64,000 bases of DNA from Martinezella multihospitum. Its GTDB lineage: Bacteria > Pseudomonadota > Alphaproteobacteria > Rhizobiales > Rhizobiaceae. This document shows positions 11,335-27,475 of this stretch, piece by piece. The DNA is taken from the NCBI RefSeq assembly GCF_900094585.1, contig NZ_FMAG01000010.1, positions 124,001-188,000 on the forward strand, given 5' to 3'. Position 1 is the first letter of the stretch; each line of letters starts with the position of its first letter. Under the pieces are notes generated by a model. It made no database searches. It was given only the letters and a program-made list of their open reading frames with translations, and was not told the DNA's origin. A program made the position numbers and the translations under genes.

Positions 11335-12321
11335 TTACTTTCGCGGCAAAGCCGCCTTACGTATAGCTAGCGGATTTTGGCCGTAGCGAAGGCGTATATG
11401 CGCGGCAAACTTGCCCGGATTTGAAAATCCCCACCGTCTTGCGATCTCATCCACGGTAACTGAGGGTGCTTCCGTCAGGAGATCCTTATGCGCGCGCTCA
11501 AGGCGGATTGCAAAAAGATAAGCCATCGGGCTGACACCAAGATATTTCCGAAACCCAAGCTGCAACGTACGAACGCTCGCTCCCGCAGCCGACGAAAGGT
11601 CCTCCAGAGTGATCCTCTGTAGAGCTCGGGCATTCATCCATGCGATGGCCCGCTTGATGTAGTAAGGTCTTGCGACATGTTGATGTGAGCGGGCATTATC
11701 CGTTGGCCAGCATTCTATGAACAGTGCGAGGAATGCTTCAATGAGCAAATGCGTGCCAATTGACACCTCCCCCTGCCGCTCCTCGCTTCCGGACGTTACC
11801 AAAAGTGTTGCCAACTGCCTCAGACGCTGAATCTTGATCTCATTGCAATCAACCACGGATCGTAACGCGGTTAGGTCGGCAGACAGTATGGAAAATTCGT
11901 CGGCAATAAGTCTAGAAAGGCGTGCTTCCTGAATCGAAACAACCACCTGTTTGGACTGTGGGCTCCAAACGGTGTGGTGGGCCTTATAATTCCGCAAAAG
12001 ATAAGCTTGGCCGGCACTTGCCGCTACCGTTTCACAGTTCGTCGTGGACGTACATTGGCCCGCATCGATAAAGTGCAGCTCAAAGCGCTTGTCTGGAGTT
12101 TGCTCGGCACGGAACGCAAATCCAGATGAAGACCATTCGTTCCAAAAGTGGAGTTCTCCCACTCGCACAATCTCGACCGAATGTTCAAACCGCGTGACAC
12201 CGTCTAGGAAGGAGTATCGCACCGGCATCAGTACGTCTGAAATAGCCTCACTCGAGAATCCGGGATCGGAACTTGAAAACGCGAACAAATTCGGGGCAGA
12301 TTCGGGTTTTCTCGAGTTCAC
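11335..12321 (-). CDS. AraC-family transcriptional regulator
   Basis: A 328-residue protein. The N-terminal two thirds resemble the AraC-binding-like (AraC_binding_2) sensor domain. The last 100 residues hold the double helix-turn-helix: LEDLSSAAGASVRTLQLGFR, YLGVSPMAYL and VDEIARRWGFSNPGKFAAHI. The GTG at 12321 is the most upstream reasonable start; a later start cannot be excluded. It is transcribed alone, downstream of the ribokinase operon and upstream of the chemoreceptor. The target and inducer cannot be read from the context. Confidence 0.85.
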   Translation of the reverse strand: MNSRKPESAPNLFAFSSSDPGFSSEAISDVLMPVRYSFLDGVTRFEHSVEIVRVGELHFWNEWSSSGFAFRAEQTPDKRFELHFIDAGQCTSTTNCETVAASAGQAYLLRNYKAHHTVWSPQSKQVVVSIQEARLSRLIADEFSILSADLTALRSVVDCNEIKIQRLRQLATLLVTSGSEERQGEVSIGTHLLIEAFLALFIECWPTDNARSHQHVARPYYIKRAIAWMNARALQRITLEDLSSAAGASVRTLQLGFRKYLGVSPMAYLFAIRLERAHKDLLTEAPSVTVDEIARRWGFSNPGKFAAHIRLRYGQNPLAIRKAALPRK

Positions 12322-12517: not shown

Positions 12518-13405
12518 TCAGTCGCGATCAGTTTCCTTTGTTGCAACCAGTTTCGCCGCGGCCTCATTCGCTCTGGCCAAGGCGTTCTTCATTGCTGTTC
12601 CCACGGCCAGTTCGGCTGCAAGAACGCCGATAAATTCGTCACCTGCTCCGTGTGTGCTTTCTACCTTGATCTTCAAACCCTCGATCACAATCTCGCTTCC
12701 CTCACTGTTGGCATAGGCCACACCCGCGCCGCCGGCGGTGACCACGACCTCGGGGAAGATCCGCACAAGTGCGCGCGCAGCCTCAAGCGCGCCACCGAGT
12801 GTCTCGACCACGGGGACTCCTGCCAGCGTTTCGGCCTCGATGGCATTCACGACGATGATATCGATAAGTGGTTGTAGCTCGTTCGACAGGGCGCGCGCGG
12901 GTGCGGCATTAATCAACACACGACCGCCAGCAAGTTTTATAGCTTTTGCTGCCGCGATATTGGCCGCATCCGGAATCTCGTTTTGCAAAACCAGAATTGT
13001 TGTCCTACCAAGCAGTTCGCCCGCTGCCTCGACATCTTGATGGCCGAGCGTCAGGTTGCTCCCCGACACGATAACGGCGCCATAGTCCCCCTCGGCGTCG
13101 AAAATTGCGACGCTCATGCCCGTCGACTGTGATGCGTCACGCCGGACGAACGTGTGATCGACATGTCTTCGATGAAGGTTGGAAATCAGGAAGCGTCCAA
13201 AATCGTCGTCGGCGACCGCTCCGATCATCGAGGTGGGAACCCCTCTCCGAGCAGCCGAAACGGCTTGATTGCCTCCCTTCCCGCCGAATTTTGGGTGCCA
13301 GGACGTCCCGGCGACGGTTTCGCCCTTACGAGGGCGAGCCGGCCCAAAGACGGCTATATCATAGTGAAGGCTGCCGAAAACGGTGACGAGGGGCGAAGAT
13401 GTCAT
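12518..13405 (-). CDS. Ribokinase-like sugar kinase (PfkB family)
   Basis: A 295-residue PfkB kinase that phosphorylates a sugar with ATP. The substrate-binding motif FGGKGGNQAVSAARRG is close to ribokinase, and the catalytic HGAGDEF near residue 255 retains the GAGD aspartate, although the usual DTTGAGD reads ESTHGAGD. Its ATG overlaps the RpiR stop by four bases (ATGA), so the two are translationally coupled. It is the last gene of the operon TIM-barrel isomerase, binding protein, ATPase, permease, RpiR, kinase. The sugar is not identified; ribose or a ketose such as psicose/allulose are reasonable guesses. Confidence 0.83.
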   Translation of the reverse strand: MTSSPLVTVFGSLHYDIAVFGPARPRKGETVAGTSWHPKFGGKGGNQAVSAARRGVPTSMIGAVADDDFGRFLISNLHRRHVDHTFVRRDASQSTGMSVAIFDAEGDYGAVIVSGSNLTLGHQDVEAAGELLGRTTILVLQNEIPDAANIAAAKAIKLAGGRVLINAAPARALSNELQPLIDIIVVNAIEAETLAGVPVVETLGGALEAARALVRIFPEVVVTAGGAGVAYANSEGSEIVIEGLKIKVESTHGAGDEFIGVLAAELAVGTAMKNALARANEAAAKLVATKETDRD

Positions 13406-14277
13406 GGAAGGCGATCTTTTCGTTTGGATTTGACGGCTGACATTGTGCGTTCGAGGTTGCGTTCGGCAGCTTGGTAGTCGCGCTGGGCAACGGCTACGAA
13501 GACCGCATCAAGAATGTTGAGCTGGGCAATACGTGCCGCCGCATTTTCCCCCATCAGCGGCGACCCTTGCGCCGTAGAACACAGAACCACGTCGGCGGAC
13601 TGGGCGAGCGCCGAGGAATCGTAATTGGTGACGGCGATGGTCCTCGCACCATTCCGGCGGGCAAGTTGGAGCGCTTCGATCACCGCGGTCGTATTGCCGG
13701 AATGGGAGAAGCCGACAGCGATATCACCCTCGCCCAGCAGCGACGCCGACATCAACATAAGATGCGAATCGTCGAACACGTTGGCGCGAACACCGATTCG
13801 CAAGAATTTATGCGCCACGTCGCGCGCGATCTGGGCCGAGCCGCCCACCCCGTAAAAATCGCGGGTCACCGCTTTACGGATGAGATCGGCAGCACGGTCG
13901 AATGCTGCCATGTCGAGAATGGCAAGAGTTTCCTCGAGCGCGTGGATCGAGGTTCGAAAAACCTTCTGCACGATTTCCAGCGATGTATCGTCTACTGACA
14001 GCTCCTGATGCATTTCGGCCGTCGGTTGCTGGTTGTACTGGCTCACCGCGAAGCGAAAGTCCCGGAAGCCGGAAAAGCCGAGCTTCTTGGTGATCTTCAC
14101 CACCATGGCCTCCGACACTCCGGCATCTTCAGCGATCTGCTTAAGCGAGGTTTCGTCGCTGAAGTCGCGCATGGCGAAGACGGTATCGACCACTTTTGCT
14201 TCGAGCGGCGTGAGCAGCGGCATCATCATCCGGATGCGTGGGCCCACTGCTTTCATGTCGAAGCTTTCAGTGTTCAT
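13402..14277 (-). CDS. RpiR-family transcriptional regulator
   Basis: A 291-residue regulator with an N-terminal HTH_6 domain (SLKQIAEDAGVSEAMVVKIT) and a C-terminal SIS domain that senses sugar phosphates (FYGVGGSAQIARDVAH, GFSHSGNTTAVIEA, SPLMGENAA). It is encoded inside the sugar operon between the permease and the kinase, the classic arrangement in which the kinase product is the effector. It is the best local candidate to bind the inverted repeat shared by this operon and the CUT1 operon (19036-19065 and 24603-24632). Confidence 0.9.
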   Translation of the reverse strand: MNTESFDMKAVGPRIRMMMPLLTPLEAKVVDTVFAMRDFSDETSLKQIAEDAGVSEAMVVKITKKLGFSGFRDFRFAVSQYNQQPTAEMHQELSVDDTSLEIVQKVFRTSIHALEETLAILDMAAFDRAADLIRKAVTRDFYGVGGSAQIARDVAHKFLRIGVRANVFDDSHLMLMSASLLGEGDIAVGFSHSGNTTAVIEALQLARRNGARTIAVTNYDSSALAQSADVVLCSTAQGSPLMGENAAARIAQLNILDAVFVAVAQRDYQAAERNLERTMSAVKSKRKDRLP

Positions 14278-14287
14278 TCTCGTCCCC

Positions 14288-15262
14288 TTATTCCCGTCCG
14301 CGTGTGGCGCGATCGATCATCATCGCGACGAGGATTATAAGGCCGGTTGCGAGCAGTTGATAGAAGGCTTGCACGTTCATCAGAGTCAAACCATTACGCA
14401 TCGCGCCGAGGATAATTGCACCAAGGATGGTCCCGAAAATGCTACCCTTGCCGCCCATCAGAGATGCTCCACCGATCGCTGCAGCTGCAATCGCATCAAG
14501 CTCCCAAAGATTGCCGAGGATTGGCTCTGCGGCACCCAGACGACCGATCAGAATCAATGATGCAAGAGCTGCCAGACCACCGGAGATGACATAGGCGGTG
14601 ATTTTTGTACGGGCGATTGGAACGCCTGCCACATATGCGGCCTCCTCGTTGCCGCCAACAGCCATCAAATATTCGCCAATGGGCGTCTTCTTGAGCAGGA
14701 TCCAGGCAGTGAGGGCAACAACGGCCACGATGGCGACGGGCGCTGGAATACCCACAATGCTGCTATTGAACAGAGACCGGAAATCTGCCGGAATGCCGAG
14801 AACCGGATTGCCGCCCGTGTAAATGAGCGCGATGGCGCGATAGGTGCTCAGGGTCCCAAGCGTCACGATGAAGGGCTGCAGGCCAACATAGGCCACAAGC
14901 ACGCCATTGATGAAGCCGCAGACGACCCCGATGCCCAATCCTGCAAGGATGGCTAGCGGGACAGGGGTGCCGGCAAGCAGAAGGGTCGCGGTGATGACGG
15001 CGGAGATGGCTGCGGTCGGGCCAACCGACAGGTCGATGCCGCCGGAAATGATAACAAGCGTCATGCCAAGCGCCAGGCACGCGTTGATGCTCGACTGTTG
15101 CAGGATGTTGACGAGATTGCGCTCTGACAAAAAGCCTGGAACTAGTGTGGCGAATACCGCCATAATGACGACAAGGCCGATTAATGTTCCCGCATCGCGC
15201 AGCGAAAATGAGAAGCGGTGGAAGACCGTCGCGGAGGTGATTTCGGAAGGCGAAGTGGTCAT
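14288..15262 (-). CDS. CUT2 sugar ABC transporter permease (RbsC type)
   Basis: A 324-residue permease with about ten membrane segments; SGGIDLSVGPTAAISAV and the GGASLMGGKGSIFGTILGA loop are family hallmarks. The ATG at 15262 has TTAGGA at a good distance. A GTG at 15283 overlaps the upstream ATPase stop and could be used instead, adding seven residues. It pairs with the double-domain ATPase encoded immediately upstream. The substrate is a sugar by family; identity unknown. Confidence 0.88.
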   Translation of the reverse strand: MTTSPSEITSATVFHRFSFSLRDAGTLIGLVVIMAVFATLVPGFLSERNLVNILQQSSINACLALGMTLVIISGGIDLSVGPTAAISAVITATLLLAGTPVPLAILAGLGIGVVCGFINGVLVAYVGLQPFIVTLGTLSTYRAIALIYTGGNPVLGIPADFRSLFNSSIVGIPAPVAIVAVVALTAWILLKKTPIGEYLMAVGGNEEAAYVAGVPIARTKITAYVISGGLAALASLILIGRLGAAEPILGNLWELDAIAAAAIGGASLMGGKGSIFGTILGAIILGAMRNGLTLMNVQAFYQLLATGLIILVAMMIDRATRGRE

Positions 15263-15279
15263 GGAATGTCCTAACAAAT

Positions 15280-16806
15280 TCACGCAGGCTGCGCTGTTTG
15301 GCTATCGGCCGCAGCCGAGCTAGCACCCGGTATGGCATGTGCAACTATCTCGGCTTCAGACAGTCGATCGCGAGGAATATCGGCAGCAATCCGCCCCTCC
15401 CGCATCACAAGTACGCGGTCGGAGAGCCGGATCACTTCTGGAAGTTCTGAAGAAACGACGATGATCGCGTGACCTTCGCTGGCGAGATCCTCAATCAGGC
15501 GGTAGATCTCGGACTTGGCGCCGACGTCGATGCCACGGGTTGGCTCGTCGAAGAGAAGGATCTGCGATCTCGCAGCCAGCCAGCGAGCGATAATCGCCTT
15601 CTGCTGGTTGCCGCCGCTGAAAAGACGGATCGGGCGATCCAATTGGAATGGCCGCAGATTGACGCGCTTCAACAAGGTTTTCGCTGCTGTGCGAAGTTTT
15701 TCAGTGCCTATCATGCCGCCGGACGAGAAACTCGGCAGCGAGGCGAGAGCCATATTATGGGTGACGGAACGCAGAGGAATTATGCCTTCCCGCTTGCGCT
15801 CTTCGGGCACCAGACCAATGCCGGCGGCAATCGCCTCCCTCGGACTGGAAAGACTGACATGCTTGCCGTCAATCGCAAGGGAGCCCGCGCTCAGGCGATC
15901 GGCACCGGCGATCAATCGCAACAATTCAGTTCGGCCCGAGCCGACAAGGCCAGCAATCCCGAGCACCTCACCTTTGTGAAGAGAAAACGAGACGTCGCGA
16001 ATCTTTGCCGACGAGGAAAGGTTCCTTGCTTCCAGCTTGATCGTCTTCGTGGCGAACGAATGATGCTCCTCCTGCATCAGCTCGCGTCCGACCATCATGG
16101 CGATAACGTCCTTTTCGGAGGCCGCTTTGAGATCGACCATCCCGACAAGCTTGCCGTCACGCATGACGCTGGCTCGCTGGCAGATGTGGAAAACTTCGTC
16201 CATCTTATGTGAGACGTAAATGATCGAGACGCCGCTGGCGGAAAGGCTTGCGATGACCTGCGCCAAACGGTCGAATTCGCTCGGCGTCAGGCTCGAGGTT
16301 GGTTCGTCCATCGCGATAACCTTCGCCTTGTCGAGCAAGGCGCGGCCGATTTCGACAATCTGGCGCTGTGCCACCTTCAAAGAGGAGATCGGCGCGGCTG
16401 GATCAATGCTCTTGTCGAGCATTGACAAAGCTTCGGCCGCGCGCATTTCCTGCTCACGGCGCGAGACGAACAGGCCGCCCATGCGGGTCAGCGATTGTCC
16501 GAGGAACATGTTTTGTGCAACGCTTAGATGCGGCACCTGCTGCAATTCCTGATGGATCATCGCGATGCCAGCTTGGCGGGCATCCATAGGCTTCTTGAAG
16601 GCCGCAGCCTCACCATCAACGAAAAACGTGCCGGACGTAGGGCGAAAAACGCCGGAGAGGATCCGCAGCAACGTTGATTTTCCGGCGCCGTTTTCGCCAA
16701 GCAGCCCGTGAATCTCGCCGGAAGCAATGTTGAAGGAAACATCTGTCAGGGCATTCACCCCCGGAAAGCTCTTCGAAATCGCTTCGAATCTCAGTCTCGG
16801 CACCAT
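15280..16806 (-). CDS. CUT2 sugar ABC transporter, double-domain ATPase (RbsA type)
   Basis: A 508-residue protein with two ABC domains. The first has Walker A GENGAGKST and Walker B VIAMDEPTSSL; the second has a degenerate Walker A (GLVGSGRTELL), signature SGGNQQK and Walker B LLFDEPTRGIDVGAKSE, all usual for RbsA/MglA ATPases. The ATG at 16806 is preceded by AGGAGGTGA, a near-perfect ribosome-binding site, so the 18-residue upstream extension is rejected. It powers import with the RbsC-type permease and the binding protein of the same operon. Confidence 0.9.
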   Translation of the reverse strand: MVPRLRFEAISKSFPGVNALTDVSFNIASGEIHGLLGENGAGKSTLLRILSGVFRPTSGTFFVDGEAAAFKKPMDARQAGIAMIHQELQQVPHLSVAQNMFLGQSLTRMGGLFVSRREQEMRAAEALSMLDKSIDPAAPISSLKVAQRQIVEIGRALLDKAKVIAMDEPTSSLTPSEFDRLAQVIASLSASGVSIIYVSHKMDEVFHICQRASVMRDGKLVGMVDLKAASEKDVIAMMVGRELMQEEHHSFATKTIKLEARNLSSSAKIRDVSFSLHKGEVLGIAGLVGSGRTELLRLIAGADRLSAGSLAIDGKHVSLSSPREAIAAGIGLVPEERKREGIIPLRSVTHNMALASLPSFSSGGMIGTEKLRTAAKTLLKRVNLRPFQLDRPIRLFSGGNQQKAIIARWLAARSQILLFDEPTRGIDVGAKSEIYRLIEDLASEGHAIIVVSSELPEVIRLSDRVLVMREGRIAADIPRDRLSEAEIVAHAIPGASSAAADSQTAQPA

Positions 16807-16829
16807 TTTTTCACCTCCTGGGGGAGAGA

Positions 16830-16855
16830 GATGCCGACCGGTCGCGGCCGGCATC
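16830..16855 (-). promoter_or_regulatory. Stem-loop between binding-protein and ATPase genes
   Basis: GATGCCG (16830-16836) pairs with CGGCATC (16849-16855), and an inner CCG/CGG pair closes a GTCG loop after one mismatch. It follows the binding-protein stop by 12 bases in the transcript, a position suited to protecting that message. Confidence 0.58.
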
Positions 16856-16866
16856 TGCAACCTCTA

Positions 16867-17931
16867 TTACTTGGCGGCTTTGGCGTCTTCCATAAGAACG
16901 GCGCGGACGTCCACACCCTCGCCCTTGTAGCGGTCGAGATTGTCCTTGGTGATGAGCGCCTGAGGGGTTGCAACGACGCGGGGCAACTTCTGGCCGGCGA
17001 CAAGGCGGAGTGCTGTCTCGAGCGCAACTTCGCCCGTCAGCACCGGGAAGCTGTCGACCGTGCCGGTCAGATCGCCGGCCTTGATCGACGCATAGGCATC
17101 CGAAATGCCATCCGTGCCGAACACCGCGACCTTGCCTGCAAGACCGGCGGCCTTGACCGCCTCGACGATGCCCAGCGCCATGCCGTCATTATTAGCATAG
17201 AAGCCGATCAAATCGGGATGCTGGTTTAGGATGTTGGTCGCTGCATCATAGGAGGTCTGGCGATCCCAGTTTCCGGGAACGCTGGCCACGACTTGGAACT
17301 TGCCGTTCTGCGTGATCGTTGACTTGAAGCCGTCGGTGCGCTGCACGGCAGCGTAGACGCCAGCCTGGCCTTCGACGATCGCCACCTTGCCGCCCTCCGG
17401 ACGATTTTCGATGAACCACTTGGCGACGCGCACGCCGTTGTCGCGCTGGACGTTGCCGACGTAATGTTCCGCCTGAGGAATTACGGCGTCGTTGACGTTC
17501 ACGACCGGCACATTGGCGGCTTTGGCCTGCTCGATTACCGGCTGCAGATTGGCGTCCGTCTGCGGTGAGACCAAGAGGACATTGTAGCCCTGAGTGATCA
17601 GGCCTTCAGCGATCGTAAGCTGGCCGAGCTGGTCGCCTTCACTTTGTGCTGCTTGATAGACGACAGGCACGCCGACCTTTTTGCCGAACGCTTCGTAGCC
17701 TTCACCGAGCGAACGCCAGTATTCGTTTGTCAAGGTCTTGGAAACCGCGCCCGCCTTGGTGCCTTCGGGAAGCTTGGGGAAAGCGCCCAGCTTGGCTTCA
17801 AGCTGTGACCAATCCATCCTGTCCTTTTCAGTGTCGGAATTCAACGGGGCGAGGTCCTGTGCCAAGGCAGCACTGACCAGAAAGCTTGCCGCGATGCTGG
17901 CAGCGAGGGTCGTCTTCAAAAAGTTCTTCAT
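16867..17931 (-). CDS. Periplasmic sugar-binding protein (RbsB/TorT-like, CUT2)
   Basis: A 354-residue solute receptor. Residues 1-25 form a signal peptide ending LVSAALA. The mature chain has TLTNEYWRSLGEGYEAFGKK, LLVSPQTDANLQPVIEQA and GFYANNDGMALGIVEA, characteristic of type I sugar-binding folds. The ATG at 17931 has GGGAGGAACCG upstream and starts directly with the signal peptide. It follows the isomerase gene and precedes the ATPase, separated from the latter by a stem-loop. The mature N-terminus has about 30 extra residues compared with RbsB, like several rhizobial receptors. Confidence 0.87.
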   Translation of the reverse strand: MKNFLKTTLAASIAASFLVSAALAQDLAPLNSDTEKDRMDWSQLEAKLGAFPKLPEGTKAGAVSKTLTNEYWRSLGEGYEAFGKKVGVPVVYQAAQSEGDQLGQLTIAEGLITQGYNVLLVSPQTDANLQPVIEQAKAANVPVVNVNDAVIPQAEHYVGNVQRDNGVRVAKWFIENRPEGGKVAIVEGQAGVYAAVQRTDGFKSTITQNGKFQVVASVPGNWDRQTSYDAATNILNQHPDLIGFYANNDGMALGIVEAVKAAGLAGKVAVFGTDGISDAYASIKAGDLTGTVDSFPVLTGEVALETALRLVAGQKLPRVVATPQALITKDNLDRYKGEGVDVRAVLMEDAKAAK

Positions 17932-18023
17932 CGGTTCCTCCCGGGTGTTCAACAAACACGCCTCCGGCGTGCCTTAGGTTACAAAGGGTCTTGGGCTCCA
18001 ACAAAATCAGGCGTTTGGGCAGC

Positions 18024-19004
18024 TCAGCCGAGCATCAACTCTTGGATGACGGCCTGAGCGGACACTGCGTCCTGTCGGGCAACCGCGCCGGAAAGCCGAT
18101 TGTCCTGCTCGAGGCGCTCCACGACAGCAAGCATCCGCTTGACGGTCTGGATATTCACCTCGCATTCGTGCACCGGATCGAGACCGGTCATGTCAGGGAA
18201 TGTGTCGAAATAGATCGCGCCGTCATAACCATCCTTGCGGATCTGGCGGAGAAGCTCGATCGTTTGCTGAGTATGCACAGCACCGACCATAAGGCCGTCA
18301 TCGCGCTTGGCGTAGCCATCGTTCAGATGAACGCCGAGGACACGGCTGTGGCGGGCGATCAGTGCCGCGGCAAAGGCAGGCTGTTCATCGGCATAGAGCA
18401 CATGCGCGAAGTCGAGGGTAACGCCAAGATTGGGCATGTCCACGTCCTTGATCGCCAGAAGCGTTGTGGCCGCATCCGGCATAAGGCTAAAGGAGCGTGG
18501 CTCATTGGGCTTGTATTCGATACTAATGAGGCAATCCGTATCATGGGCGCAAACTTCACGAATTCCTTCAACTTCGTGTTCCCACAACAAATGGTAGTCC
18601 GCCTGGAAAGCATAATCGAAACCGTCCTGACCAAGCCAAAGGGTCATCAAGTTGCTGCCGGCGGCGCGGGCTGCATCAATGCCTTTTTTTGTCAGGTCAA
18701 TTGCTTCGCGACGAACGATTGGGTCAGGATTGGTGAAGGCACCGATCTTGAAGGCCGGGTTAGTATAATAGCGCATGGCGAAACCATTGATCGCCAGTCC
18801 TAGGTCGCCAATCTGGCGCGCCAGGAGCGCTGGATCCGCCGTAACGTGGTCTGGATAATTGAGATCAAGGTCGGTCAGGCCGTCGACCTTTGCAGCACGC
18901 GCCGCCATTTGCAACATGGTCGGTTTGCCGGACAGGTTCGGCCACTCGGCCTGTGGCTTGGAAGCAAAAGAGTTCAGGCGGGTAGCGAATTTCAAATTGG
19001 TCAC
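18024..19004 (-). CDS. Sugar isomerase/epimerase-like TIM-barrel protein
   Basis: A 326-residue xylose-isomerase-like TIM barrel, longer than the Hyi group and nearer to the L-rhamnose-isomerase/rhizobial sugar-isomerase branch. Metal-site strands are recognisable as ISIEYKPNEPR, GVTLDFAHVLYA and GVHLNDGYAKRDDG, supplying Glu, Asp, His and Asp. The GTG at 19004 is the first codon of the family alignment. It is the first gene of the sugar operon and follows the shared inverted repeat by 31 bases. It probably converts the imported aldose into the ketose phosphorylated by the ribokinase; the exact sugar is unknown. Confidence 0.72.
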   Translation of the reverse strand: MTNLKFATRLNSFASKPQAEWPNLSGKPTMLQMAARAAKVDGLTDLDLNYPDHVTADPALLARQIGDLGLAINGFAMRYYTNPAFKIGAFTNPDPIVRREAIDLTKKGIDAARAAGSNLMTLWLGQDGFDYAFQADYHLLWEHEVEGIREVCAHDTDCLISIEYKPNEPRSFSLMPDAATTLLAIKDVDMPNLGVTLDFAHVLYADEQPAFAAALIARHSRVLGVHLNDGYAKRDDGLMVGAVHTQQTIELLRQIRKDGYDGAIYFDTFPDMTGLDPVHECEVNIQTVKRMLAVVERLEQDNRLSGAVARQDAVSAQAVIQELMLG

Positions 19005-19035: not shown

Positions 19036-19065
19036 ACTTCACAAATTAATCCATGTTTGTAAAGT
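19036..19065. promoter_or_regulatory. Shared operator, copy A (ACTTCAC-N16-GTAAAGT)
   Basis: ACTTCAC at 19036-19042 and GTAAAGT at 19059-19065 form an inverted repeat with one mismatch and a 16-base spacer. The same heptamers at the same spacing occur at 24603-24632 before the CUT1 operon. It lies just upstream of the isomerase start, where a repressor would block transcription. Confidence 0.6.
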
Positions 19066-19119
19066 TATAAATGTTGTGCGGTGCACCAATTCGTGAGGAC
19101 AAGATGCCCGGTGCATGAA

Positions 19120-19277
19120 TTTTCGACTTGCTGCTCGGTGCTGTAGAACTCGTCAAAGCAGGCCCCGGAATCTTGAAAAGTCCGTGGTTGTTTGATCGAC
19201 CTGCGACAACCGAAGAGGTCGTTGGACATGACCGCTTTGACCTAGGCTCGAGCGGCATTCAGGCTGCTAACCGCTAA
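19120..19277 (+). other. Unidentified short coding-like frame
   Basis: About 50 residues, hydrophobic at first, then polar, ending GSSGIQAANR and TAA at 19275-19277. There is no ribosome-binding site or start codon, so it may be the tail of a decayed gene. I could not assign it to a family. The surrounding 19005-19510 stretch contains otherwise only the shared operator and the kinase relic. Confidence 0.25.
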
Positions 19278-19337
19278 GTTTGACGACCATGCCGAAGTAA
19301 TTGCGGCCTAAGCGGCCGACGCCAAAGAATGGTCAGC

Positions 19338-19450
19338 TCAATCGAGCGCACAAAAAGTTGCCGACAGGGTATCGCCGGCACCCGTCGTGTCGATGACCGG
19401 TCGTCGGGAACGGTCGACACCACGACTAGCGCAGCGCCCTCTGCAGGCAT
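19338..19450 (-). pseudogene. PfkB-family sugar kinase relic
   Basis: The minus strand encodes RPVIDTTGAGDTLSATFCALD and then a stop. DTTGAGD is the catalytic anion-hole motif of PfkB kinases. In another frame just before it MPAEGAALVVVSTVPDD reads like the preceding strands, so one frameshift separates them, and all else is missing. It lies directly downstream of the CUT1 permease gene, suggesting that the CUT1 operon once ended with its own kinase. Confidence 0.6.
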
Positions 19451-19510
19451 GCGGCATGTCGATATTTTTCGTCCTATGGAAGGTCTTGGTATGGCGGCTC
19501 CTCCAGGCTT

Positions 19511-20464
19511 CTATTTGACTGCGCCCGCAGTCAGGCCTTTGACAATGAAGCGCTCCAGGAAGATTCCGACGAGCACAAGGGGCATGATCGCGGCGGTCGC
19601 GATCGCTGCCATCGACCACCAGTTGATCCCCTGCGACCCGGTCTGGCTCGCCACCATTACCGGCAGAGTCTTTGCATTGGAGCTCGTCAGCAAGGCTGCG
19701 AAGAAATATTCATTCCAGCAGAGGATCACCGATAGGATGAAAGCCGCCACCATGCCCGGCAGTGCAATCGGTAGGACAATGCGCACAAACGCGCCCCAGA
19801 TCGAGCATCCATCGACCAAAGCCGCCTGCTCAAGCTCAACCGGAATCGTGTCAAACTGGTCGCGCATGACCCAGATGACGATCGGCAGCACCATCAGCGT
19901 ATAGACGAGCACGAGGCCGATCAGCGTGTCGAGCAGCATGAGGTTCTTGTAGAGAACAAGAAACGGCATGGCGAGGACAACGGGTGGCAGGATCAACTGC
20001 GACAGGAAGAAGAACGAGATGTCCTTGTTCGTCATCCAAAGAAACTTGTATGAAAACCGGCTGAGCCCGTAGGCCGCAAGCGAGCCAATGACGACCGCCA
20101 GGAACGAGGCGCCGGCAGAGGCGACGATGCTGTTGAGAAACCGGCGTAGGAACTCGTCGCGCACGGTGGATGGGGAAAGCAGAGTATCGGGCGAGAGGCC
20201 GAGCGAGCGCCAGCCCTTCCAGTCGGGCGTAAAATCGATAAAGGGGATGAGGTGCCCCTGCGTGACGTTGACCGCCGTCTTGAACGAGGTCGTGATCGTC
20301 CAGTAGATCGGAAACAAGGAAATGAAGGCCCAAAAGATCAGCGCAGCGTAGATCAGCAGGCTGGGCGTCAGGAATCGTGGTCGGCCGGGCCAAAGGCTTC
20401 CGTACCGCGACAAAGGGCGCCTCACGGAAGGGCTGGCTGAGGATGTGTCGGTGGCGTTGACCAT
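19511..20464 (-). CDS. CUT1 sugar ABC transporter permease (MalG type)
   Basis: A 317-residue permease with six membrane segments. The EAA loop near the C-terminal third reads ELEQAALVDGCSIWGAFVRI, the coupling motif that docks to the ATPase. The ATG at 20464 starts ten bases after the preceding permease stop; the long upstream frame overlapping that gene is not plausible. It partners the MalF-type permease, the Tat-exported receptor and the UgpC/MalK-type ATPase of this operon. The transported sugar or polyol is not evident. Confidence 0.88.
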   Translation of the reverse strand: MVNATDTSSASPSVRRPLSRYGSLWPGRPRFLTPSLLIYAALIFWAFISLFPIYWTITTSFKTAVNVTQGHLIPFIDFTPDWKGWRSLGLSPDTLLSPSTVRDEFLRRFLNSIVASAGASFLAVVIGSLAAYGLSRFSYKFLWMTNKDISFFFLSQLILPPVVLAMPFLVLYKNLMLLDTLIGLVLVYTLMVLPIVIWVMRDQFDTIPVELEQAALVDGCSIWGAFVRIVLPIALPGMVAAFILSVILCWNEYFFAALLTSSNAKTLPVMVASQTGSQGINWWSMAAIATAAIMPLVLVGIFLERFIVKGLTAGAVK

Positions 20465-20474
20465 AGCAGGTGCC

Positions 20475-21599
20475 TCAGTTGGATCGCTGCATCCATCGGC
20501 TGGCACCTTTGAGGATGAGCGCGACGACGATGATGATGACAACGAGGTAAAATTCAGCGAGCATGGTGCCGTAGCCCACGTTCGAGCGGTCGCGATATTC
20601 GCGGAAGATGAAGCTCGACACGGTGTCGGTCGCGCCACCCGGCCCCCCTGCCGTCACGTTGATGACGATGTCGGCGAGCTTGAGCTGGAAAATGATGCGC
20701 AAGATGACGACGGTCAAGCTGACCGGCAGCATTAGGGGAAAGGTGATCTCCTTGAAACTCTGCCAACCGGAGGCGCCGTCCACCTTCGCCGCTTCCTTCA
20801 CCTCCGCCGGCAGCGCCTGCAGGCCAGCCAGGAGCAGGATCATCATGAAGGGGATCGATACCCAGGCATCCATCGCCATGATGGAGGTCCGCGCCAGCCA
20901 GGGTGTTGCAAAGAAAGCAGGATTGTCCCAGCCGAGGTGGCGGGCGAGCGTGGCCGCCGGACCAAAGCGGTATTCCATCAGCGATTTGCCGATCATCCAG
21001 CTAACGGCCACCGGGCTCAGCATCAGCGGTAGCAGGAAGGCCACGCGGAAGAACTTGCGCGCACGGATCTCCGCATTCAGCAATAGAGCAAGCCCGAAGG
21101 CGATGGCATATTGCACCAGCACCGACAGGACATAATAGACCATGTTGAGCAGCGCGTTCCAGAAATAGGTGTCCGAAAATAGTGCGCGAAGATTGTCGAG
21201 CCCGTTGAAACGACGGCCGGCGACAGCACTCAAGTTCCAGTCCGTGAAGGCGATATAAGCGCCGAAGACGGTAGGAAACACGACCATTGCCACTGTGAAG
21301 AGGACCGCTGGCAGCACGAAGACAGCGCGCTGCCCGTCTTCACCACGGATCATGACCTGCGCGGCACATAGCGCACTCGCCCATATAATATAAGCGAAGA
21401 GCAGCGGACGCCAGTTGACAAGGCCAATTGATGTTGCACCGGTGGCTTCGAGAACCTGCAGGACGAGCGTCGCAAACAGCAACGTGGTCGCGGCCCACAG
21501 TAGTATGCGGCCGCGCCGCGCGCCGCTGATCTGAACCGCCGTTTGCTCGGAACGCGTTGCAGCGGGTGGGATGCCTGCTGGCATTATGGTATGGGACAT
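20475..21599 (-). CDS. CUT1 sugar ABC transporter permease (MalF type)
   Basis: A 374-residue permease with about eight membrane segments; the EAA loop reads EVKEAAKVDGASGWQSFKEI. The N-terminal region, with two extra hydrophobic segments before the MalF core, is longer than in most short CUT1 permeases. The ATG at 21599 is preceded by GAAGG; a TTG two codons earlier is possible. It follows the receptor gene after a strong stem-loop and precedes the MalG-type permease. Confidence 0.87.
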   Translation of the reverse strand: MSHTIMPAGIPPAATRSEQTAVQISGARRGRILLWAATTLLFATLVLQVLEATGATSIGLVNWRPLLFAYIIWASALCAAQVMIRGEDGQRAVFVLPAVLFTVAMVVFPTVFGAYIAFTDWNLSAVAGRRFNGLDNLRALFSDTYFWNALLNMVYYVLSVLVQYAIAFGLALLLNAEIRARKFFRVAFLLPLMLSPVAVSWMIGKSLMEYRFGPAATLARHLGWDNPAFFATPWLARTSIMAMDAWVSIPFMMILLLAGLQALPAEVKEAAKVDGASGWQSFKEITFPLMLPVSLTVVILRIIFQLKLADIVINVTAGGPGGATDTVSSFIFREYRDRSNVGYGTMLAEFYLVVIIIVVALILKGASRWMQRSN

Positions 21600-21638
21600 T
21601 GACAAACCTTCGACGCATGCTCTTCAGGCATGGATGAG

Positions 21639-21666
21639 AGCCAGGCGTCGCGGGCGACGCTTGGCT
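21639..21666 (-). promoter_or_regulatory. Stem-loop after the CUT1 receptor gene
   Basis: AGCCAGGCGTCG (21639-21650) pairs over 12 positions (one G-T) with CGACGCTTGGCT (21655-21666) around a CGGG loop. It begins about eight bases after the receptor stop in the transcript. It is the strongest of the binding-protein-associated hairpins. Confidence 0.65.
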
Positions 21667-21673
21667 GTTCAGC

Positions 21674-23335
21674 TTAGGCCCCGAGCGAGGCCTTGTAGAG
21701 CGCGATCTGCTTGTCGCGGCCGAGCTGCTCGGTGATCTTTTCCCAAGCGGCAGCGATTGCATCGGCTCCGGCTTGTGCGCTCGCCTGACCGGCAAAAACC
21801 TTCGCCAGTTCGTCTTCGGCCACGCTGTAATACTGGAAGATGCCCGGTATGCGCGGTTCGATGGCCGCATTCGGATGGTTGTAAGAATTCGACTGGGAAG
21901 CAAGATAGCTCGAGATGAATGCTTCGTCGTAACCGGCTGCCACCCATTCCTTGATATCGAACTGACTCTTGCGGTAGCATTGGAAGCCGGATGGATACGC
22001 CGCAGTCCAAAGAGCAAGATCCTTTCCACCGAGATGGGCTGCCGCACTCCAGGCCGCCTTCTTCTTCTTCTCGTCGCTGTCAACGCGCGCCATTACGTAA
22101 ACGCCCCAGCCGAGATAGGCCATGTTCGGCGCGTGGTTCGGACCGCTTGCGAGCTTGTCCCACTGGCCGGTCTTGGCGTTGTAGACGTCGTCTGAACCCG
22201 GCAGGATATCGAATCCGATTGTATCGCCAACAACCGAGCTGTCGCTGGTGCGGGCGCTGGAGCCTACATCGCCCCACCAGGAGACCATGGAGCCCGTGCC
22301 GGCCAGAAACTGCTGGAAGGCGGTCGTGCCCGGATCGGCATTAAGCTGGTCGCCGGCTTCCGACGGCAGGGCGTCGATGACGTCCTGAATTGCGCGAACC
22401 CATGCCGGATTGTTGATGCGCGGCTTCATAGTATCCACGTCGAAGAGCCAAGCTTTGTCGTCTGGGTGTTTAGCGTAGGCCGTGGCCCTTGAGCCCAGGA
22501 AGTAGAAGCCAAATCCGCCCCACGCCTTTGGTGCATCGAGATAACCGATGGCATCCGCGCCGCCGATCTTCTTGCCTTTGAGAAACTTGGTGGCCTCCTG
22601 GACCTTCTGCCAAGTCTTTGGCACCCCCCATTCGCCCTCGTGGCCTTCGTCTTTCCAGGCCTTAGCGAGTGTCTCGTCGGTAAAATAGTCAGTGCGATAA
22701 TTGAAGTTGTGACAATCGCCATCGACCGAGATGCGGTAGGTCTTACCGTCCCAGGTGCCGACGGGCGCTTTCAGGTAATCGACATAGTCATCCATGTCGA
22801 TCTGCGCCTTGACCCAATCGGGCATTTCCGACGCCAGTCCCTTGCCACAAACATCGCCCTCAAACGGAGCGCCCATTTCCAGGATGTCAAAATCGACGGT
22901 ACCCGTGGCAATTGCCTGCTGCAGGCGCGGATTGTAGTCGGCCTGGGCCAGATCGATCCATGTGATCTTGGCACCGGTATAGGCCTCCCACGGCTTCAAG
23001 AAACCGCGGAAAAGGACGTTGTGGAGATTCTGGTTATTCAAGCCCATGAAGGAAAGTTCGACGCCCGAGAACTCGCCCTGCTTGACGTTCTTCTTGGTGG
23101 CCTCCAGGCACATCTCACCAACTTTCTGCCAGTCGGCGTCCGTTGGCGATCCTTTGCCCACGCCTGGAACCTGCAGAATTTGACCCCGCAACGAGGTGTC
23201 CTGTGCGAAGGCTGTGCCGAACGGGCTGATGACACCACCCATGGCGGCAACGGCACCAATACTGGCACTGGTCTTTAAGATAGCGCGCCTGCTCAGGCCG
23301 ATTGCCATCATTTTCTCGAAATCACTGACTTTCAC
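21674..23335 (-). CDS. CUT1 extracellular solute-binding protein, Tat-type signal
   Basis: A 553-residue receptor, long for the family. The N-terminus carries a twin-arginine signal (LSRRAILKTSASIG) ending at about residue 44 (GTAFAQ), so it is exported folded, perhaps with a bound metal or ligand. The mature part shows type II (MalE/UgpB) features: ITWIDLAQADYNPRLQQAIA, MVSWWGDVG and a C-terminal helical lid. The GTG at 23335 is chosen because GGGAGGAGA lies immediately upstream. It is the second gene of the operon after the ATPase. The substrate is unknown. Confidence 0.86.
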   Translation of the reverse strand: MKVSDFEKMMAIGLSRRAILKTSASIGAVAAMGGVISPFGTAFAQDTSLRGQILQVPGVGKGSPTDADWQKVGEMCLEATKKNVKQGEFSGVELSFMGLNNQNLHNVLFRGFLKPWEAYTGAKITWIDLAQADYNPRLQQAIATGTVDFDILEMGAPFEGDVCGKGLASEMPDWVKAQIDMDDYVDYLKAPVGTWDGKTYRISVDGDCHNFNYRTDYFTDETLAKAWKDEGHEGEWGVPKTWQKVQEATKFLKGKKIGGADAIGYLDAPKAWGGFGFYFLGSRATAYAKHPDDKAWLFDVDTMKPRINNPAWVRAIQDVIDALPSEAGDQLNADPGTTAFQQFLAGTGSMVSWWGDVGSSARTSDSSVVGDTIGFDILPGSDDVYNAKTGQWDKLASGPNHAPNMAYLGWGVYVMARVDSDEKKKKAAWSAAAHLGGKDLALWTAAYPSGFQCYRKSQFDIKEWVAAGYDEAFISSYLASQSNSYNHPNAAIEPRIPGIFQYYSVAEDELAKVFAGQASAQAGADAIAAAWEKITEQLGRDKQIALYKASLGA

Positions 23336-23407
23336 GTGGTTCTCCTCCCGTTGTTGAACAAATGCCACGGTGTGGCTAAGCCGCTTTCTCCAAAGCGTCT
23401 GCAAAAT

Positions 23408-24469
23408 TTACCCGAGCCGCGTTCCGCTCTGTGCATCGAATAGATGTACGCGATCGGCGTTGGGCGTCATCGCGATCAGGTGGTCTGAGGGCTCTTTGAC
23501 CCGGTCGCGAAATACGCCGATGACCTTCTGCTGTCCGAGCCTGGCAAAAACCTGAGTTTCAGACCCGGTGGATTCCACCACCGACACTTGAGCTTTGACA
23601 TCACCGCCAAGCGTGAAATGCTCTGGTCGTATGCCATACCAGGCGGGCCGCCCATCTGACCCTGCCGGCACGCGGGCCAGCGGCAATCGAATCCCGTCGT
23701 CGGTCTCGAAAAATGGCTGCGCTGCAGCGCGGATGTGGCCCTTGATCAGATTCATCGATGGCGAGCCGATGAAGCCGGCGACAAAGGTGTTGGCGGGATT
23801 GTCGTAAAGCGTCATCGGTGCGCCGATCTGCTCCACGTGGCCATCTCTGAGAACCACAATCCGGTCGGCCATGGTCATGGCCTCCACCTGGTCATGCGTC
23901 ACGTAAATCATGGTTGTTGCTAGCCGACGCTGCAACTCCTTGATCTCAGCGCGCATCTGCACGCGAAGCTTGGCGTCCAGATTGGACAGCGGCTCATCAA
24001 ACAGGAACACTTTGGGATCACGAACAATCGCCCTGCCCATCGCTACCCGCTGACGCTGGCCGCCGGAAAGCTGCCGGGGATATCTGGCGAGGTAAGGTGC
24101 CAGATCGAGGATCTCGGCAGCCTTGCGCACGTGTTCGTCAATATAAGCCTTCGCTTCACCTCGCATTTTCAGTGCGAAGCCCATGTTCTCGGCCACCGTC
24201 TTGTGCGGATAGAGGGCATAGCTCTGAAAGACCATAGCGATGTCGCGATCCTTCGGCGGCAGATCGTTAACCACTCTGCCGTCGATCTTGATGTCGCCAG
24301 TGCTGATCTGCTCAAGGCCGGCAACCATGCGAAGCAGCGTCGACTTCCCGCAACCGGATGGTCCAACAAGAACGACAAACTCGCCGTCAGGGATTTCGAC
24401 GGATACCCCATGAATCACCGTCAGGCTGCCATAGGCTTTGCCGACATTGTCGATATTCATTGATGCCAA
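23408..24469 (-). CDS. CUT1 sugar ABC transporter ATPase (UgpC/MalK type)
   Basis: A 353-residue ATPase with Walker A GPSGCGKST, signature LSGGQRQ, Walker B FLFDEPLSNLD, H-loop THD and a C-terminal TOBE regulatory domain (GIRPEHFTLG). The TTG at 24469 is preferred over the ATG at 24460 because AGGAGA is correctly spaced for it and the resulting start matches the usual MASxxIxNVxKxYG beginning. Such ATPases often serve several CUT1 systems. It is first in the operon, downstream of a strong leader hairpin and the shared inverted repeat. Confidence 0.9.
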   Translation of the reverse strand: MASMNIDNVGKAYGSLTVIHGVSVEIPDGEFVVLVGPSGCGKSTLLRMVAGLEQISTGDIKIDGRVVNDLPPKDRDIAMVFQSYALYPHKTVAENMGFALKMRGEAKAYIDEHVRKAAEILDLAPYLARYPRQLSGGQRQRVAMGRAIVRDPKVFLFDEPLSNLDAKLRVQMRAEIKELQRRLATTMIYVTHDQVEAMTMADRIVVLRDGHVEQIGAPMTLYDNPANTFVAGFIGSPSMNLIKGHIRAAAQPFFETDDGIRLPLARVPAGSDGRPAWYGIRPEHFTLGGDVKAQVSVVESTGSETQVFARLGQQKVIGVFRDRVKEPSDHLIAMTPNADRVHLFDAQSGTRLG

Positions 24470-24532
24470 ATTATTCTCCTCAAACGGCGTCGCGCTCTCC
24501 TCGCTACTTCCCCTTCCAAAATCCCCTCAACG

Positions 24533-24567
24533 ACGGCGGTGGGAAGCATACGCTTCACCACCGCCGT
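24533..24567 (-). promoter_or_regulatory. Strong leader hairpin upstream of the CUT1 operon
   Basis: ACGGCGGTGG (24533-24542) pairs perfectly with CCACCGCCGT (24558-24567); after a one-base bulge GAAGC pairs with GCTTC over an ATAC loop, giving about 15 pairs. It lies about 65 bases before the ATPase start in the untranslated leader, so it may be an attenuator, RNA-stability element or protein site. Confidence 0.55.
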
Positions 24568-24602
24568 TCCGAAGATCCTGGGAGGATACCGCCGTACATG
24601 AA

Positions 24603-24632
24603 ACTTCACATAATATTGTGATGTTGTAAAGT
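24603..24632. promoter_or_regulatory. Shared operator, copy B (ACTTCAC-N16-GTAAAGT)
   Basis: Heptamers ACTTCAC (24603-24609) and GTAAAGT (24626-24632) repeat copy A exactly, including the 16-base spacer; flanking bases extend the identity to ACTTCACA and TTGTAAAGT. It lies in the divergent gap upstream of the CUT1 ATPase, so one regulator probably controls both sugar operons. Confidence 0.6.
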
Positions 24633-24829
24633 GTTTCGGCTGATAAGTTGCGTATTTTTTGTGAGCGGTAATCAGTCGCTAATGACAAAGGCAGGCCGGG
24701 GGGCATACCGCCGCACTCATCCCCAAACCGGGTGAGAAACCCGAGTCTCGCGTGGCGTGTGATTGCCAACATTACAGAAATGCAATAATTCGTAAAGAAT
24801 AGAGTGTTGTCGCTCGGGAGGAGAATTGA

Positions 24830-25270
24830 GTGCTGAAGGGAATTGATCCGGTTTTAAACGCCGAACTGTTGTACGCCTTGATGCTTATGGGACATGGCGA
24901 TCAATTGGTGCTGTGCGATGTCAATCACCCGGCCCAAACTATTGCTCGGCATACAACCTACGGCCGCCTTATCGACGTTTCCGGATGTGGTCTCGAACGT
25001 ACTGCGAAAGCTGTTTTGAAACTGTTTCCTCTCGACACGTTCATCACCTCACCGGTCAAGCGCATGCAGGTTGTCGATGACCCAGCTGGTCATATGCCAA
25101 TTTTCGAGACTATTCAGTCAGTCGTCGATGAGGCCGAAGGTAGGCCTGTGCCCATGGAAGCCTTGGAACGCTTTGCATTTTATGAAGCTGCAAAAGAATC
25201 GTTCGCGATTGTAAGAACGTCCGATATGGGGCCGTATGGGTGCTTCATTTTTAGCAAAGGCGTCATTTAA
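24830..25270 (+). CDS. fucU: RbsD/FucU-family sugar mutarotase
   Basis: A 146-residue protein of the RbsD/FucU superfamily, which interconverts sugar anomers so that they can be used after import. LLYALMLMGHGDQLVLCDVNHPA contains the conserved GHGD and D catalytic/binding residues, and the C-terminal region (FAIVRTSDMGPYGCFIFSKGV) has the conserved Tyr. The length matches FucU (about 140). The GTG at 24830 follows GGGAGGAGA. It is divergent from the CUT1 operon and probably serves the same sugar. FucU is the nearer branch, but fucose specificity is not proven. Confidence 0.82.
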   Translation: MLKGIDPVLNAELLYALMLMGHGDQLVLCDVNHPAQTIARHTTYGRLIDVSGCGLERTAKAVLKLFPLDTFITSPVKRMQVVDDPAGHMPIFETIQSVVDEAEGRPVPMEALERFAFYEAAKESFAIVRTSDMGPYGCFIFSKGVI

Positions 25271-26525: not shown

Positions 26526-27383
26526 CTAGTATTCTGGTTTGCTGGCGTTACTCCTGAGCTTCCGCGGATCGGCAACTGTGCGGTCGAAGTAGCGTGACGG
26601 TGTTGTTCCCAAGGCCTTACGAAACATTGTTATAAAGGAAGTCGCTGACTCGTAGCCAAGGGCGTCGGAGACTTGCTGTACGGGCACTCCGTCGGACAGC
26701 TTAGAGAGCGCAACAAGCAGATGGAGCTGCTGCCGCCATCGCCCGAACGACATCCCCGTTTCCCGGACGACCAAACGGGCTAGCGTTCGCTCACTGGTCG
26801 CAGTCCGTCCGGACCATTCGGCCAGCGTCGTTCGGTCGGCCGGATGCGCCATCAACGCCTCCTGGATAGCCACCATCTTGGGATGGGATGAAACAGGGAG
26901 TCTCAGTCCGCCCGTCGGCATCCCCTCCAGCTCTCTCAACAGTACCTTCATCAGAAGAAGTACGTGCTCGCCGGTGTCGTTTCCTACGGTCGTGCCAGCA
27001 AGGCGCAGGACTATCTCCCTCACCAGTGGGGTGATCTCGAGGGTGCAACAGTGCTCCGGCAGGCAGGCGGCATCCTGCTTGACAAACAGGATGCATAAGC
27101 GCGAGTGCGGAGATGCGGGGCTGCGATGTCGAAGGCCGGCCGGAACCCATACGGCGCATCCGGAGGGGACGATCCATATCGAGCCGGGAACGTGGCACAT
27201 GACTGCACCGCTCAGGGCTATAATGAGTTGCCCACTCGCGTGCTCGTGCAGCGGCAGCTCAGCCCAGTGCTGATCGTACCCGACAAGCAACGCCATCGCG
27301 GGTGTTGCGAACTCGACATCCCATGCGGCTGCCGACGGCGCCCGAAGAGGTATTATTGGCATATTTTCGATATCAGTAGTCAT
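26526..27383 (-). CDS. AraC-family regulator with cupin sensor domain
   Basis: A 285-residue regulator. An N-terminal cupin segment (ELPLHEHASGQLIIALSG, PSGCAVWVPAGLRH) is followed by the AraC DNA-binding domain (LAEWSGRTATSERTLARLV, VQQVSDALGYESATSFITMF). The ATG at 27383 is chosen; a TTG 20 codons upstream is the alternative. It is divergent from the amidohydrolase gene with a 92-base gap, so it probably regulates that gene. The inducer may be an aromatic acid, judged only from the neighbour. Confidence 0.85.
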   Translation of the reverse strand: MTTDIENMPIIPLRAPSAAAWDVEFATPAMALLVGYDQHWAELPLHEHASGQLIIALSGAVMCHVPGSIWIVPSGCAVWVPAGLRHRSPASPHSRLCILFVKQDAACLPEHCCTLEITPLVREIVLRLAGTTVGNDTGEHVLLLMKVLLRELEGMPTGGLRLPVSSHPKMVAIQEALMAHPADRTTLAEWSGRTATSERTLARLVVRETGMSFGRWRQQLHLLVALSKLSDGVPVQQVSDALGYESATSFITMFRKALGTTPSRYFDRTVADPRKLRSNASKPEY

Positions 27384-27475
27384 TCTGGAGCGTATCACGC
27401 CAACGATGGAAGCAGTACTAACGACGTCTGCGGGTATCTTCAACCTTAGCGCCGTCGAATGGAGAGAATGACATC

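Follow-up and report, generated by a model that had tools for sequence, protein, structure and literature searches.

Three long-spaced inverted repeats in a stretch of DNA from Martinezella multihospitum (contig NZ_FMAG01000010.1, positions 124,001 to 188,000; 64,000 nucleotides in all, hereafter the window, whose own numbering is used below) are, with a probability that we put at about 0.86, the operators of a single AlsR-type regulator of the RpiR family, encoded at 13402..14277 on the minus strand. The regulator would join two sugar importers of the ATP-binding cassette (ABC) type, one of the CUT2 and one of the CUT1 family, with an isomerase, a kinase and a mutarotase. What the sequence itself establishes is that the operators are present and conserved, that their spacing is fixed, that the exact sites found occur at this locus alone, and that site and regulator clade occur together. 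The first-pass annotation of the window had proposed such a regulon, with the RpiR protein acting at the heads of both importer operons, and the comparative evidence (co-occurrence of site and regulator, exact sites confined to the locus, and similar arms at the promoter of AlsR relatives) speaks for this predicted regulon. The two operators listed in that annotation stand, while a third one at 24769-24798, the one that ties in the mutarotase, had been overlooked.

Operators in the window and their confinement to the locus

The repeat ACTTCAC-N16-GTAAAGT occurs at 19036-19065 (operator 1, minus strand) and at 24603-24632 (operator 2, minus strand), with the same heptamers and the same N16 spacing in both, exactly as the first-pass annotation had reported. 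Operator 1 reads ACTTTACA-N14-TGTGAAGT toward the isomerase gene and ends 31 base pairs (bp) from the GTG start of that open reading frame (ORF). Operator 2 faces the CUT1 operon in the same way, and the ORF of the CUT1 ATPase starts 133 bp further on. The weaker operator 3 (24769..24798, plus strand), ACATTAC-N16-GTAAAGA, lies 31 bp from the ORF of an RbsD/FucU family mutarotase and carries two mismatches to the degenerate pattern ACTTYAC-N16-GTRAAGT; its deviations, the initial ACAT and the final A, recur in relatives.

Allowing up to three mismatches, the pattern gave six matches in the window (three places, each on both strands), compared to a mean of 1.55 and a maximum of 5 in shuffled windows, and none of the 100 shuffles reached six. 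In the organism's own genome (7,315,880 bases in 19 contigs), exact ACTTYAC-N16-GTRAAGT was found at only two places, operators 1 and 2. The earlier judgement that a chance agreement is unlikely is thus borne out by the shuffles and by the two exact places in 7.3 Mb, both of them here, and the genome-wide motif search called for at that time, now performed, did not find many unrelated copies of the pattern. Once up to two mismatches are allowed, the genome contains 27 places, fewer than the 57 of the reversed control; loose matching is therefore noise and only near-exact sites are meaningful. The lone place with one mismatch (C9, L003 1501-1530) has a GC-rich core, lies inside an ORF of 596 codons and was rejected. 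A trained model (R1), built from 50 operators including the three of the window (50 of 117 distinct sites, 82 of the 117 being listed), reported only the three window sites in the own genome at an E-value of up to 10, with 150 of the 441 first-look candidates scored. A gap of 21 that also scored in some rows was an overlap of the same arms and was discarded.

The exact pattern ACTTYACA-N14-TGTRAAGT was found in 15 of the 394 genomes of the family, at 18 places, and the reversed control gave none. All 18 places precede either this isomerase gene (15) or the CUT1 ATPase gene (3), and 14 of the 15 genomes carry an orthologue of the RpiR regulator no more than 11 kb away on that contig. Site and regulator were both scanned for in 151 genomes, taken as handles G000-G150; among these the exact site was present in 3 of the 7 RpiR carriers and in 1 of the 144 others (Fisher p = 0.0002), and the remaining four carriers have a site with one or two mismatches before the isomerase gene. 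A class-wide exact scan returned one genome of 385, the window's own, with one hit for the control.

Conservation of the operators in relatives

Loci with relatives of the RpiR regulator (59 from Alphaproteobacteria, mostly Rhizobium, Agrobacterium and Mesorhizobium, complemented by further loci from the family genomes) gave 85 sequences, two of which (L038 and L080) have no isomerase gene in the fetched DNA and were left out. The operator is present before the isomerase in all 83 loci having that gene, in exact form in 67, with one mismatch in 12 and with two in 4. Since some genomes occur twice, the 83 rows were reduced to 77 by removal of repeats. In these, the 16 arm positions carry 1.4-2.0 bits of information; among the 14 core positions, 11 carry 0.15-0.63 bits and positions 9, 10 and 21 carry 1.08-1.65, and the upstream flank more than 8 bp out carries at most 0.43 bits. 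The N16 spacing holds in 77 of 77 rows, each having at most two mismatches at N16 and at least four at N15 and N17. Toward the gene, ACTTTACAAA comes first and TGTGAAGT second, and an AT-rich stretch abuts the upstream arm. The arms are asymmetric, with T at position 5 of the upstream arm and G at the mirrored position, a feature shown by 67 of the 77 isomerase rows and by every one of the 29 CUT1 rows.

Relatives of the CUT1 protein encoded at 21674-23404 were found in 80 of the 394 genomes, at 81 places, 30 of which were read as loci. The ATPase gene is colinear in 12 of these 30 and is preceded by the operator in all 12 (4 exact, 8 with one mismatch), and all 12 genomes carry the regulator. 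No site with up to two mismatches was found in the 18 loci of other arrangement, although the regulator is present in six of those genomes as well (G084, G271, G224, G278, G356 and G314). The site therefore goes with the linked locus and not with the protein family. In several relatives the CUT1 operon ends with a kinase gene, a second RbsD/FucU gene or both.

The divergent region between the mutarotase gene and the CUT1 operon was compared in 29 rows, which include repeats and represent 23 distinct sequences per site; of the mutarotase loci, L168-L180 were left out and L166 has no CUT1 neighbour. With the pattern widened to operator 3's own form for scoring the mutarotase side, operators 2 and 3 are both present in 28 of the 29 rows, and the mutarotase-side site keeps its deviant form, mostly RCATYAC...GTRAAGA/T. 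The start-to-start distance between the two is 166-171 bp in 23 rows (near 16 turns), 146 bp in four (near 14 turns) and 183 bp in one (17.4 turns). A helical phasing of the two operators is suggestive, but the single 183-bp row of the 28 breaks it and speaks against strict phasing.

The regulator, E. coli AlsR and the genes of the locus

The regulator matches both PF01418 (HTH_6) and PF01380 (SIS) above their gathering thresholds. It scores 452.4 bits against the model of the PRK11337 group (NF008458, MurR/RpiR family), above the cut-off of 378, compared to 549 bits for AlsR itself, and is 42% identical to AlsR of E. coli K-12 over 273 residues. E. coli AlsR carries a repressor annotation, and PMC8249747 lists it with D-allose as effector. 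The alsR-rpiB region of K-12 contains ACTTTAT-N15-GTGAAGT 70 bp before alsR and, in the direction of alsR, ACTTCAC-N15-GTGATGT beside rpiB. These two predicted AlsR operators (L150 4062-4090 and 4300-4328) lie 238 bp apart in the intergenic region. Among 3000 Markov simulations of that region (gaps of 14-17, up to one mismatch), three gave one hit and none gave two, the number found in K-12. The alsR-side arms recur at N15 in all 15 loci examined, K-12 and 14 further AlsR genomes from the family of G572 (taken as Enterobacteriaceae from a genome whose AlsR is 99.7-100% identical to that of E. coli), with one mismatch in 13 including K-12 and two mismatches in 2.

The two systems share the PRK11337 model and an adjacent CUT2 importer, and in both the operon of the regulator itself has arms of similar sequence and equal polarity. 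They differ in spacing, N15 before alsR and N16 in 77 of 77 rows here; in the place of the regulator gene, which lies within the CUT2 operon here whereas alsR is divergent from rpiB; and in the reach of the operator, which here also precedes the genes of a mutarotase and of a second, CUT1-type importer. E. coli uses AlsK, RpiB and AlsE where the locus described here has a PfkB kinase and a TIM-barrel isomerase. A near-mode search gave no match for a carrier of the isomerase operon in E. coli, and two genomes of the E. coli family, G583 and G776, carry the whole row of isomerase, CUT2, RpiR and kinase genes, with an RpiR protein of 54-55% identity. In the operator region of two genomes of that family (L196 4418-4447 and L197 4459-4488) the arms may be paired at N8 as well as at N16, a shared ACATTACAAC follows, and a change of spacing is possible. 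G583 has a further relative of the regulator, 61% identical, at L195 8998-9867 beside other CUT2-like genes. A suspected decay of this copy was based on a count of two stops, but the stop counted in the G358 copy is the terminal one and the claim was dropped.

Other sites of the RpiR family were compared from the respective papers. For RccR of Pseudomonas the sites are 28 bp long and bear TGTAGT/ACTACA arms, which by subtraction leaves N16, besides a 15-bp site; HexR has TTGT-N7-8-ACAA (PMC5489143). Like the operators described here, the RccR sites are long-spaced inverted repeats with arm centres about 22 bp apart through which one RpiR-family protein serves several operons; a long-spaced inverted repeat is therefore, on the evidence of that source, not new in the family. 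The arms, in contrast, are TGTAGT/ACTACA for RccR and ACTTYACA/TGTRAAGT here, running in the opposite direction if related (TGTAGT resembling TGTRAAGT), and RccR-type arms were not found in the operators here; RccR moreover uses the 15-bp site as well and controls central metabolism through 2-keto-3-deoxy-6-phosphogluconate (KDPG). SpNanR, as described in PMC12713135, is likewise an RpiR-family regulator with several sites within one catabolic cluster, but its site, the 18-bp near-palindrome TCTGAAAGTACTTTTAGA, is short, with abutting arms of a polarity opposite to that of the arms here, and the protein is reported as an activator.

The gene content given in the first-pass annotation was recovered by domain and family matches: the PfkB kinase, the RpiR protein, the CUT2 set, the isomerase, the CUT1 permeases and ATPase and the RbsD/FucU protein were all found. 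The row behind operator 1, all on the minus strand, consists of the TIM-barrel sugar isomerase/epimerase, its first gene (18024..19004), the CUT2 sugar-binding protein (16867..17955), the CUT2 ATPase with two ABC_tran stretches (15280..16860), the CUT2 permease (14288..15283), the RpiR/AlsR-type regulator, placed in this operon by gene order, and a ribokinase-like sugar kinase of the PfkB family (12518..13405). The best NCBIfam model for the CUT2 binding protein is that of a D-allose binding protein, with a score (171.9) below the cut-off of 335; among its PDB matches two chains named MSD3 are best, followed by D-allose-binding proteins and, lower in the ranking, by ribose-binding proteins. 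The row behind operator 2, also on the minus strand, comprises the CUT1 ATPase of UgpC/MalK type, its first gene (23408..24469), a putative substrate-binding protein of 576 residues, named from its place in the operon (21674..23404), and the permeases A (20475..21605) and B (19511..20638), whose starts are the mechanical ones of the ORF list. The mutarotase gene behind operator 3 (24830..25270, plus strand) is divergent from the CUT1 operon. At the limits used, no sequence match to the putative binding protein was found in Pfam, NCBIfam or PDB, yet its relatives in the 80 genomes match at an E-value of at most 1e-150. Viral contigs gave no match.

Between CUT1 permease B and operator 1, a remnant of a PfkB kinase gene was observed at 19347-19400 on the minus strand (PVIDTTGAGDTLSATFCA, 18 residues, E-value about 2e-4). 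In R. mongolense subsp. loessense (L023, L151) the RpiR protein is identical to that of the window and the mutarotase only 88-89% identical, a difference which hints at recombination within the locus.

Proposed mechanism and alternatives

The regulator would recognise two 8-bp arms, ACTTYACA and TGTRAAGT. From centre to centre these are separated by 22 bp, roughly two turns of B-DNA, which puts both arms on the same face of the DNA. The three operators, before the isomerase-CUT2-rpiR-kinase row, before CUT1 and before the divergent mutarotase gene, would define one local regulon, and the presence of rpiR in the row behind operator 1 would place the regulator under its own control. By analogy with AlsR, the most likely mode is that a repressor sits at each operator until a sugar-phosphate product binds its SIS domain, the releasing sugar phosphate being made from the imported sugar by the isomerase and the kinase. 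We infer that the protein binds these sites physically, represses rather than activates and responds to such a ligand, and that the sugar is probably D-allose or a monosaccharide related to it.

Crystals of RpiR-family proteins contain tetramers in which the effector lies at the interface, according to PMC12713135 and, for RccR with KDPG, PMC10810197, although SpNanR itself is described in the former as being in a dimer-tetramer equilibrium. It is conceivable, if rather unlikely, that in the AlsR clade outward-pointing TGTRAAGT half-sites two turns apart would be occupied by the two DNA-binding dimers of a tetramer at each operator, with the same tetramer bridging operators 2 and 3. An outward geometry is absent from the available parts of the RpiR-family papers compared, in which the half-sites of RccR, HexR and NanR point inward.

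Several observations weigh against the proposal as a whole or against parts of it. The role of the repeats as operators is deduced by comparison of sequences, and binding, expression and ligand follow by inference. No -10 or -35 element could be firmly placed. The sole sigma-70-like match of the promoter scans was the repeat, and without a conserved -35 element no promoter is claimed. Locus L155 has no recognisable mutarotase-side operator, and G117 carries the site beside an isomerase gene cut by the contig end and has no RpiR protein at an E-value of up to 1e-30. The regulator falls below the cut-off of the AlsR equivalog model (NF040776; 327.1 against 400 bits) and is therefore not filed as AlsR itself. 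In the enterobacteria the arms are spaced by N15, the arm on the left near alsR being mostly ACTTTAT, and beside rpiB a site with up to two mismatches was found in only 8 of the 15 loci, in one of them at N16. The isomerase site of G583 and G776 has one mismatch at N16, and a reading at N8 (two and one mismatches) is nearly equal. Around the 61% identical relative in G583, which stands among other genes, the 19 kb read contain no site below two mismatches, and thus not every near relative of the regulator has the operator. Finally, one member of the RpiR family, S. pneumoniae NanR, is reported in PMC12713135 as an activator whose ligand has no effect on DNA affinity.

This last case favours the most serious alternative, namely that the RpiR protein binds the operators but activates transcription, or does both, and the asymmetry of the arms relative to transcription, conserved in the isomerase and the CUT1 rows, is compatible with an oriented contact. 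The annotation of E. coli AlsR, the nearest characterised relative, as a repressor argues against it, as does the distance of 31 bp between operators 1 and 3 and the start codons, a position that would be more usual for repression; activation is accordingly regarded as improbable. The sites might instead be bound by another regulator, such as one of the two AraC-type proteins encoded nearby in the window (11335-12321 and 26526-27443). At an E-value of up to 1e-20, the fetched DNA shows the first only in L023, a near-identical locus, and the second only as hits of 29-31% identity in L031 and L034; for the second protein the comparison is weak, since most of the fetched loci stop short of it. 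The proximity of RpiR to the operator in nearly all genomes selected by their site and the similar arms at the AlsR clade's own operon make another regulator very unlikely.

That the repeat acts as an RNA hairpin in a leader, as an attenuator or a protein-binding stem, is less likely still. For it, the conserved T/G asymmetry would give a U-G pair in sense RNA, C-A is seen in none of the 71 isomerase, 23 CUT1 and 23 mutarotase distinct sites, columns 8 and 23 pair with three double changes, and the covariation score slightly exceeds the shuffle mean (0.108 against 0.095; equalled or passed in 45 of 500 shuffles). Against it, cells are paired as often as in column shuffles (90.0% against 89.6%; 135 of 500), and the outer pairs are disrupted in between 5 and 14 of the 50 sequences. 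A loop need not, in addition, be exactly 16 nucleotides long (it would be 15 in the enterics), whereas a protein on DNA would need a fixed phase. Chance similarity or shared descent from a duplicated promoter, for which it may be said that operators 1 and 2 share one locus, is practically negligible, being already disfavoured by the exact scans of family and class, the conservation of the isomerase operator and the AlsR loci. The arms are kept across many genera, unlike the outer flanks and the greater part of the core, which differ between genomes, and the relatives carry a comparable repeat, differently spaced, at a promoter of their own.

The three repeats as operators of an AlsR-type regulator thus constitute a regulon that is new, well supported and of a known kind. 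Among the matches listed from the open-licence literature, with supplements and RegPrecise outside the scope of the search, neither an AlsR operator nor this rhizobial regulon was found, and the repeat gives this regulator clade, for which those matches offered none, an operator defined precisely enough to be tested. In E. coli K-12, a code closely similar to that of the rhizobial operator leads to the prediction of two AlsR operators. The predicted regulon also connects a CUT1 importer, with its unclassified putative binding protein of 576 residues, with a monosaccharide pathway and thereby limits the range in which the sugar of this importer has to be sought.

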